Assembly: GCA_022750335.1 (NCBI GenBank) | Contig: JAKIVX010000006.1 | Span: 1 to 64,000, forward strand | Direction of reading: 5' to 3' | DNA length: 64,000 bases | Origin: Thermoplasmata archaeon | GTDB lineage: Archaea; Thermoplasmatota; Thermoplasmata; Lutacidiplasmatales; UBA184 | Part shown: positions 55,261 through 56,610 of the stretch, one piece after another | Position numbering within the stretch: position 1 is the first letter of the stretch | Layout: every line of letters begins with the position of its first letter | Position numbers and translations under genes: made by a program | The notes under the pieces: model-generated | The model's input: only the letters and a program-made list of their open reading frames with translations | Databases searched by the model: none | What the model was told of the DNA's origin: nothing

Positions 55261-55608
55261 CTACTCCTCTACGAACGTCCGCAATCGCGCGAGGGTCAGG
55301 TCCCACCGGCTGGAGATGGCCGCCAGGTCTTGCCGGGCCTGCTCCAGGCGCTGCGAATCCAGCCGGCAGATGCGGGACCTCCCTCTTCGGTAGGAATGGA
55401 CCAATCCCGCGTCCTCCAGGACTTGCAGGTGTTTGGCCACGGCTTGACGGGTGACCCCGGCGGTGATCGTGAGCCGGGTGATGGACATCGGGCCATGGTT
55501 GCAGAGGCGGGACACGATCCGAAGGCGGGTCGGATCACCGAGCGCTCCGAAAAGCGGGGCCGACCCCCGGAGCGTCGACGCGGTGGCGGATCTAGGGAGA
55601 GCGCGCAA
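55261..55608 (-). CDS. ArsR-family regulator
   Basis: The 115-residue winged-helix protein has LFGALGDPTRLRIVSRLCNH, TAGVTRQAVAKHLQVLEDAG and GLVHSYRRGRSRICRLDSQR, the ArsR layout. The TTG start overlaps the SRPBCC stop by 17 bases, so both are made from one mRNA. No metal-binding Cys motif (CVC) is seen, so it senses something else. It probably binds the two palindromes upstream of the SRPBCC gene and controls the divergent gene as well. Confidence 0.9.
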   Translation of the reverse strand: MRALPRSATASTLRGSAPLFGALGDPTRLRIVSRLCNHGPMSITRLTITAGVTRQAVAKHLQVLEDAGLVHSYRRGRSRICRLDSQRLEQARQDLAAISSRWDLTLARLRTFVEE

Positions 55609-56080
55609 GATGCTTCCCGATGAGAACGACCTGCATGCCCCACCCTTGGTCGTTGGCTTCGAATGCGCTCTTCCGGCGGTGGGCGGGGATCTGATCGAAC
55701 CCTGACTCGGTCACGGTCAGCAAGGTTCCCTCCGGGACGGCTTGGAGCTCGAACGCGACGAGGGTGGTGGGTTCGTCCGAATAGTCGATCGTCTGGTCCA
55801 GCGAGTGCGGGTGCCATCGGTAGGAGAACAGTTTCTCGGGTTCCATGCGCTCGATCGTGATGGAGTAGGGGAACCCTTCCATCGGCGCCTGCAGCTTGGC
55901 GATATCGGGGTCGGCCTTCGTGCCGGTGATGACTCCGTGGACGGTGGCCCCCGGGCTGAAAGGGCCCCCGAAGCGAATCCCAAACCACTCTCCAAATTCC
56001 TTGGAATCGGCCAACGCCTTCCACACACGACGCGGGGTCGCCCGCAGCGTCACCTGCTTCGTGATTCGATCGGTGCTCAT
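55592..56080 (-). CDS. SRPBCC (AHSA1-like) protein
   Basis: A 162-residue protein of the AHSA1/SRPBCC group: STDRITKQVTLRATPRRVWK, WFGIRFGGPFSPGATVHGVI, FSYRWHPHSLDQTIDYSDEP and LLTVTESGFDQIPAHRRKSA. Genes of this type often pair with an ArsR regulator. The ATG at 56080 lies just inside the edge of a palindrome. It overlaps the ArsR gene by 17 bases. The bound ligand is unknown. Confidence 0.87.
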   Translation of the reverse strand: MSTDRITKQVTLRATPRRVWKALADSKEFGEWFGIRFGGPFSPGATVHGVITGTKADPDIAKLQAPMEGFPYSITIERMEPEKLFSYRWHPHSLDQTIDYSDEPTTLVAFELQAVPEGTLLTVTESGFDQIPAHRRKSAFEANDQGWGMQVVLIGKHLARSP

Positions 56081-56082
56081 GC

Positions 56083-56098
56083 GCAACCCTTCGGTTGC
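56083..56098. promoter_or_regulatory. Palindromic operator 1, ArsR divergon
   Basis: GCAACC-CTTC-GGTTGC is a perfect 6-base inverted repeat with a 4-base centre, ending just before the SRPBCC start. It overlaps the predicted transcription start of the SRPBCC-ArsR operon. The same arms recur 39 bases away at 56122-56137. Confidence 0.65.
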
Positions 56099-56113
56099 CC
56101 ACTATTTCGCCGA

Positions 56114-56121
56114 CATATAAG
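56114..56121. promoter_or_regulatory. Bidirectional TATA box, ArsR divergon
   Basis: CATATAAG lies between the two palindromes. Read leftward, its centre lies about 26 bases from 56091 and serves the SRPBCC-ArsR operon; read rightward it could serve the divergent SRPBCC gene, though a GTTTATC near 56172 is better placed for the latter. Confidence 0.45.
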
Positions 56122-56137
56122 GCAACCTTATGGTTGC
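56122..56137. promoter_or_regulatory. Palindromic operator 2, ArsR divergon
   Basis: GCAACC-TTAT-GGTTGC has the same arms as operator 1 with a different centre. It abuts the TATA box, so a bound repressor would block factor binding in the leftward direction. Confidence 0.65.
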
Positions 56138-56211
56138 TTATTTGGGAAAGCAGCGGCGGGACCACCGCCGAGTTTATCTCACCGGTCCGCGTCGCCCGAA
56201 CGCGGAATCCC

Positions 56212-56610
56212 ATGTCAAAAGTGAGCACGATCCATCAGACCGTCACGTTGCCAGCCCCTCCGAATATCGTCTACAAGACCCACGTGGACGCGAAGGCGCA
56301 CGCCCGGTTTTCGGGCCATCCGGCGCAGTTGACGGCAAAACCCGGGGGTCGCTTCTCCCATTACGGAGGCGCCCTGGGGGGGTTCGTGGTTCTCCTTCAG
56401 AAGAACCGGCGGATCGTACTGGCGTGGCGGGCGAGCAGCTGGGCCGAGGGCGACTACTCGATCGCGGATTTTGTCCTGACCAAGGTCGCGAACGGAACGC
56501 GGGTGGAGTTTACCCAGTCCGGAGTGCCCACCGCCTCGGCCAAGTCCATCGCGAGCGGGTGGCACGAGCATTACTGGGCCCCGTTGTCCAAGTTCCTCGC
56601 CCGGGACTGA
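56212..56610 (+). CDS. SRPBCC protein, divergent from the ArsR operon
   Basis: A 132-residue protein of the SRPBCC/AHSA1 group with IHQTVTLPAPPNIVYKTHVD, FSGHPAQLTAKPGGRFSHYG and VEFTQSGVPTASAKSIASGW. It is related in fold to the neighbour at 55592-56080 but clearly different in sequence. The ATG at 56212 is preceded by a TATA-like GTTTATCT at about 56172-56179. It may be a second target of the same regulator. Confidence 0.83.
   Translation: MSKVSTIHQTVTLPAPPNIVYKTHVDAKAHARFSGHPAQLTAKPGGRFSHYGGALGGFVVLLQKNRRIVLAWRASSWAEGDYSIADFVLTKVANGTRVEFTQSGVPTASAKSIASGWHEHYWAPLSKFLARD

Follow-up and report, generated by a model that had tools for sequence, protein, structure and literature searches.

Two palindromes of the form GCAACC-N4-GGTTGC stand in front of an archaeal operon encoding an SRPBCC protein and an ArsR-family regulator, and the question raised by this locus is what binds them and which of the neighboring genes they control. 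They were found in a stretch of 64,000 nucleotides, hereinafter called the window. The proximal putative operator (GCAACCCTTCGGTTGC) occupies positions 56083–56098 and the distal one (GCAACCTTATGGTTGC) positions 56122–56137; both are exact matches to the motif and neither is assigned to a strand. As the initial annotation reported, the motif is present twice, the centres of its copies are 39 bp apart and the sequence CATATAAG lies between them at 56114–56121, directly adjoining the distal site. The palindromes were called identical there, which holds for the arms but not for the central tetranucleotides (CTTC vs TTAT). The proximal palindrome was also thought to overlap the start of the SRPBCC gene, but the ATG codon is at 56080–56078 and the site ends two bases upstream of it. 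Both archaeal orthologues begin at the same methionine, and the site does not overlap the start codon; an upstream in-frame TTG at 56086 is the sole start candidate that would overlap it. Along the minus strand the elements follow in the order GCAACCATAAGGTTGC-CTTATATG-TCGGCGAAATAGTGG-GCAACCGAAGGGTTGC-GC-ATG.

The first gene of the operon (55592–56080, minus strand) encodes an SRPBCC/AHSA1 protein of 162 aa (Pfam AHSA1, E 1.3e-12) with 47–49% identity to its archaeal orthologues; its profile had no match in PDB at E 1e-5. The second gene, adjacent and co-directional (55261–55608, minus strand), encodes an ArsR-family regulator (Pfam HTH_20 and HTH_5, NCBIfam NF033788). Its scores of 36.1 bits for HTH_5 (cut-off 22) and 75.9 bits for NF033788 (cut-off 55) indicate a winged-helix ArsR domain, the identity to its archaeal orthologues is 50–51%, and the TTG start that the ORF finder tentatively assigned to it overlaps the 3′ end of the SRPBCC gene. 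This protein has sequence relatives in PDB, namely SmtB, CzrA, NmtR and other ArsR/SmtB metalloregulators, with which it shares the winged-helix family. Metal-binding cysteines such as CxC are a conserved motif of these metalloregulators, whereas the window ArsR has no CxC, no invariant cysteine was found across the three archaeal ArsRs, and the operon contains no metal gene. The usual metal sites are therefore disfavored by the lack of a conserved cysteine.

In the own draft genome (1,595,687 bases, 72% complete) the exact motif occurs twice, both times at the operon. Four further places match it with one mismatch; three of them were read and all are within ORFs (the fourth is on contig C34). 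Close SRPBCC orthologues with 49% and 47% identity were registered in two other of 78 genomes of the same genus (loci L070 and L088), three more genomes of the genus gave only weak SRPBCC matches (E 4e-5 to 8e-4), and a three-sequence SRPBCC profile (E ≤ 1e-10) picked out the same three genomes from 400 of the class. Both L070 and L088 have ArsR downstream of SRPBCC and an exact site at −18 from ATG. Their distal sites keep the spacing of 39 bp, with one mismatch in L070 and with decay to four mismatches in L088. Across the 78 genomes of the genus there are seven exact sites, four before the SRPBCC-ArsR operon and three within ORFs. The shorter pattern AACC-N4-GGTT precedes other ArsR genes of the class only at some divergent ArsR-SRPBCC pairs.

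Bacterial loci were collected by a protein-first contig scan with two short peptide patterns, which was not exhaustive and gave 38 loci, and by tblastn of plasmid records, which gave seven more. The first sample of 38 operons combined the window, 34 of the 38 scanned loci (including the two other archaeal ones) and three plasmid loci with ArsR. Left out were L082, L084 and L085, where the stretch starts 131–302 bases before the gene and the gene comes directly after another ORF, and L090, a fragment without ArsR, while four Burkholderia loci without ArsR were moved to the comparison of operons with and without this gene. Spread over archaea and several bacterial phyla, 34 of the 38 operons, which are all related by descent and 22 of which are mycobacterial, have two sites with no more than one mismatch. 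Two exact sites were found in 24 operons and at least one site in 37. Among 7600 dinucleotide-shuffled regions none had two sites and 11 had at least one. Those short of the pair are the Chloroflexi locus L086 with two sites of two mismatches each, L087 and L088 with a single site apiece at ≤1 mismatch, and L133 with one site plus another having two mismatches. Conservation before orthologous ArsR-SRPBCC operons, the check on which the initial annotation had made its prediction depend, was thereby examined, and the site proved to be conserved in both archaea and bacteria. As to its occurrence elsewhere, 12 bacterial genomes contain 29 exact sites, 22 of which are at the operon. Of the remaining seven, five were read: four fall within mechanically called ORFs and the fifth (L112) is outside the listed ORFs, beyond the 3′ terminus of the ORF closest to it. 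Together with the location of both exact copies of the own genome at the operon, this makes the circuit look local, with one main target.

Two bacterial loci had an unusual arrangement. In L066 (Mycobacterium terramassiliense) two SRPBCC-ArsR operons, each with exact twin sites, lie head to head at ~1.9–3.8 kb of the locus, as a result of either an inverted duplication of recent date or an error of assembly. In L090 (Gemmatimonadota) sites with one and two mismatches, 43 bp apart, precede the SRPBCC gene by ~1.4 kb. There they stand at the ORF that opens what is probably a longer operon ending with this gene, and the start ATG of one frame falls inside the second site.

The elements between and inside the sites were compared in 58 operons (3 archaeal and 55 bacterial) having the pair at ≤2 mismatches, drawn from both this sample and the second one described below; for L088 the distal site was positioned by hand on the best match in the region, which has four mismatches and a spacing of 39. 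In the window the TATA-like element of the SRPBCC-ArsR operon is CTTATATG (56114–56121, minus strand). A TATA-like element within 12 bases after the distal site was detected in all three archaeal operons and in 3 of 55 bacterial ones, by an expression composed after the archaeal sequences had been seen. By a less tuned measure, the AT fraction of nine bases at this place, two of the 55 bacterial operons reach the archaeal minimum. The Shine-Dalgarno-like GGAGG is found inside the proximal site of 44 bacterial operons and of no archaeal one, but L088 keeps GAGG, so that the loss is partial there. The spacing of the sites is 39 in archaea and 40–47 in bacteria. In bacterial operons the right arm of the distal site supplies a −35-like TTGC, and the best −10-like hexamer (searched at 15–19 bp) is often weak. 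Of the 55 bacterial operons 33 have TANNNT immediately before the proximal site, as has one of the three archaeal ones, so that the contrast between domains in respect of the −10 element is modest. A noisy AT profile upstream of 46 ORFs of the window, with mechanically assigned starts, has its peak at −27 and a smaller one at −36.

We consider it very probable that the twin palindromes serve as two binding sites of the ArsR encoded by the second gene and that this protein represses its own operon. The defined repressor site and the autoregulation proposed initially thus gain good support, as far as comparison of sequences can give it. An ArsR dimer at the distal site would adjoin the TATA element and take the place of BRE, and a dimer at the proximal site would cover the predicted transcription start together with the 5′ end of the message. 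This start was placed inside the proximal operator (56088–56095, minus strand) from the distance between TATA and the start, for which the textbook value was used. Both dimers together would exclude TBP/TFB and RNA polymerase, so that the operon would repress itself until some signal or ligand frees ArsR and lifts repression. In this scheme we infer that ArsR is the binder and binds as a dimer, where transcription starts, that the effect is repression and not activation, and that a ligand brings about release. The archaeal L088 has mostly lost its distal site, so that the operon may not need both. Cooperative contact between dimers gets no support, because the spacing varies from 39 to 47 bp and is not fixed to the helical turn.

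The initial annotation expected this regulator to act in both directions. Divergently from the operon lies a second SRPBCC/AHSA1 gene (56212–56610, plus strand; Pfam AHSA1, E 2.9e-17), for which TTTATCT at 56173–56179 (plus strand) is a candidate TATA element by its letters, and a shared operator would repress this gene along with the operon. We find such sharing unlikely, even though the distal site is intergenic, at a distance of 74 bp from the ATG of the divergent gene, and ten loci of the same genus pair a related SRPBCC gene divergently with another ArsR, a single conserved inverted repeat of a different type separating the two, which makes two-way control by an ArsR plausible in the genus. 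Control of the divergent gene was nevertheless left unsupported, since none of its 19 fetched relatives has a GCAACC site (≤2 mismatches) in the 190 bp that precede the region of similarity. Besides, no ArsR was found on the fetched stretches of the six highest-scoring relatives (L093–L098, 44–61% identity), the candidate TATA element is 36 bp past the distal site, and neither of the further archaeal genomes that have the operon contains anything matching the divergent gene at E ≤ 1e-6. The core promoter enclosed by the sites is that of the SRPBCC-ArsR direction alone.

The ten divergent loci are L099–L104, L106–L108 and L110. Inspected by eye, all of them carry the inverted repeat TAAAC[CT]AAA..GTT between the genes, which at most of these loci adjoins the TATA-like TTAAGTAT or a similar sequence. 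Their ArsRs belong to another branch and have the recognition helix LPAVSKHL vs RQAVAKHL in the window. Perhaps this repeat is a real two-way operator.

Some regulator other than the ArsR of the operon might bind the sites, binding by ArsR being itself a prediction. The second sample bears on this point; its loci were selected by their similarity to the SRPBCC protein (E ≤ 1e-20) in the phylum of the acidobacterium G408, where 37 of 297 genomes have this protein. Loci were obtained for 30 of 40 listed places, one of which (L136) is the same operon as L054 of the first sample. There are 28 acidobacterial operons in which ArsR lies downstream; both sites (≤1 mismatch) precede 22 of them, and at least one precedes 27; the sole exception, L162, has one site with two mismatches. 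Six SRPBCC homologues without ArsR downstream (L142, L147 and the Burkholderia loci L131, L135, L166 and L167) have two sites in no case and at least one in a single case, L147. By the Fisher test this difference has p 7e-4 when both sites are required and 1.3e-4 when one suffices; the values are guides only, as the rows are related by descent. Two observations run counter to binding by ArsR: 6 of the 28 ArsR operons are short of the second site at ≤1 mismatch, and L147 keeps one site although no ArsR was detected there. At the same time the pair of sites accompanies the ArsR gene and recurs before the same two genes across phyla and the domain border, where few other regulators are likely to be common, and we regard a foreign regulator as improbable.

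L142 from this sample has an ArsR homologue on the strand opposite to its SRPBCC homologue. The sequence TAAACCATTTAGTTAA near the SRPBCC start resembles the archaeal TAAAC-type site, and a GCAACC site with two mismatches is found by the ATG.

In place of an operator bound by ArsR, the proximal palindrome might fold into a hairpin of the leader RNA and thereby mask the ribosome binding site, with a secondary role for the distal copy. A stem of 6 bp does fold in the window, L054 and L088, and the position of GGAGG within the proximal site of most bacterial operons agrees with such a role. All three archaeal copies, however, are devoid of GGAGG, the distal site is upstream of the core promoter and hence outside the message, and the predicted transcription start falls inside the proximal site. 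The best structure of L070 contains no such fold, and the z-scores are −1.97, −0.59, 0.75 and −1.28. In 114 sites the arms are constant and N4 is variable, and not one compensatory pair change was found against 22 wobble and 20 broken pairs. Departures in the arms that never keep pairing by a double change are expected for a protein site on DNA, and the hairpin seems to us very improbable. Chance palindromes of a GC-rich genome need hardly be considered. With ≤3 mismatches allowed, the motif is indeed as frequent in the window as chance predicts (32 vs 33.06 expected), but the pairs in real regions were never reproduced by shuffling and both exact genomic copies are at the operon, and genome rarity, the genus scan and the shuffles rule out a scattered repeat as well.

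Repression by the operon's own ArsR has its closest tested precedent in Rv2034 of Mycobacterium tuberculosis, an ArsR whose gene is next to an SRPBCC-like gene and which represses itself at an inverted repeat with a 4-bp spacer (PMC3338718). As in the window, ArsR shares its operon (Rv2034-Rv2036) with a gene of the polyketide-cyclase/SRPBCC-like type, Rv2035, and the palindrome described there, in which a 4-bp spacer separates two inverted repeats close by the start codon, has the same design as the window sites. The letters differ (CCGTAAGT-N4-ACTTACGG vs GCAACC-N4-GGTTGC), and so does the number of palindromes, one being described there and two found here. In addition, the ArsR gene comes first and behind a bacterial promoter in the Rv2034 operon and second in the window, and Rv2034 has further targets, dosR and phoP, unlike the circuit considered here (PMC3338718). 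The closest named system is the two-gene module ArsR-COG3832 (Aha1/START) of Makarova et al. 2009, patchy and proposed to be mobile, with a toxin-antitoxin-like or resistance role suggested (PMC2701414). The same two protein families stand side by side in it, and its ArsR, like that of the window, is without the usual metal-binding motifs. Comparable patchiness was observed here: at the similarity applied, three of the 400 genomes examined in the class, three of the 78 in the genus and 37 of the 297 in the phylum of G408. The portion of that paper available to us describes no operator (PMC2701414), whereas the window operon has twin sites. Among the best matches listed from open-licence literature, judged by titles and the beginnings of abstracts, there was no earlier account of a GCAACC operator. 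The widespread ArsR-SRPBCC pair gains a concrete, testable one here.

How the operon came to be shared by two domains was approached through a tree of ArsRs (80 rows in a short alignment of 108 columns). All three archaeal proteins are among 41 ArsRs of the operon type that make up one side of a branch with support 99/94, and the other included ArsRs of the genus fall elsewhere. By this placement the window ArsR has nearer relatives among these bacterial ArsRs than among the remaining ArsRs that its genus contributes to the tree. Transfer from bacteria fits both the tree and the rarity of the operon in the class, and bacteria were probably the source from which all three archaeal copies came, together with their operators. 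One acquisition or several may underlie them; a single one was not rejected (p-AU 0.36). We lean towards the view that bacteria passed the repressor and its operators to archaea as a module whose DNA sites stayed intact and that, while the two operators remained frozen, the core promoter lying between and inside them was exchanged. The −10 element and the Shine-Dalgarno sequence would then have been replaced by a TATA element, and the same repressor would block a different transcription machine with the same geometry. If so, one 16-bp site would be a regulatory part working in both domains. The locus may be viewed as a natural experiment on the way in which an archaeon can use a regulator that it shares with bacteria, with the operators kept and the surrounding core promoter different; a site respected by both transcription systems could become a simple repressor part for archaea.

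The genes flanking the operon on either side have homologues in the same genus with identity up to 60–61%, which disfavors a misbinned contig. In the search for an empty site in relatives, the two flanking genes of G005 turned out to sit on separate contigs. Upstream of an archaeal orthologue of the operon (L043 in G095) a transposase-like ORF was noticed by eye, possibly a hint at mobility.
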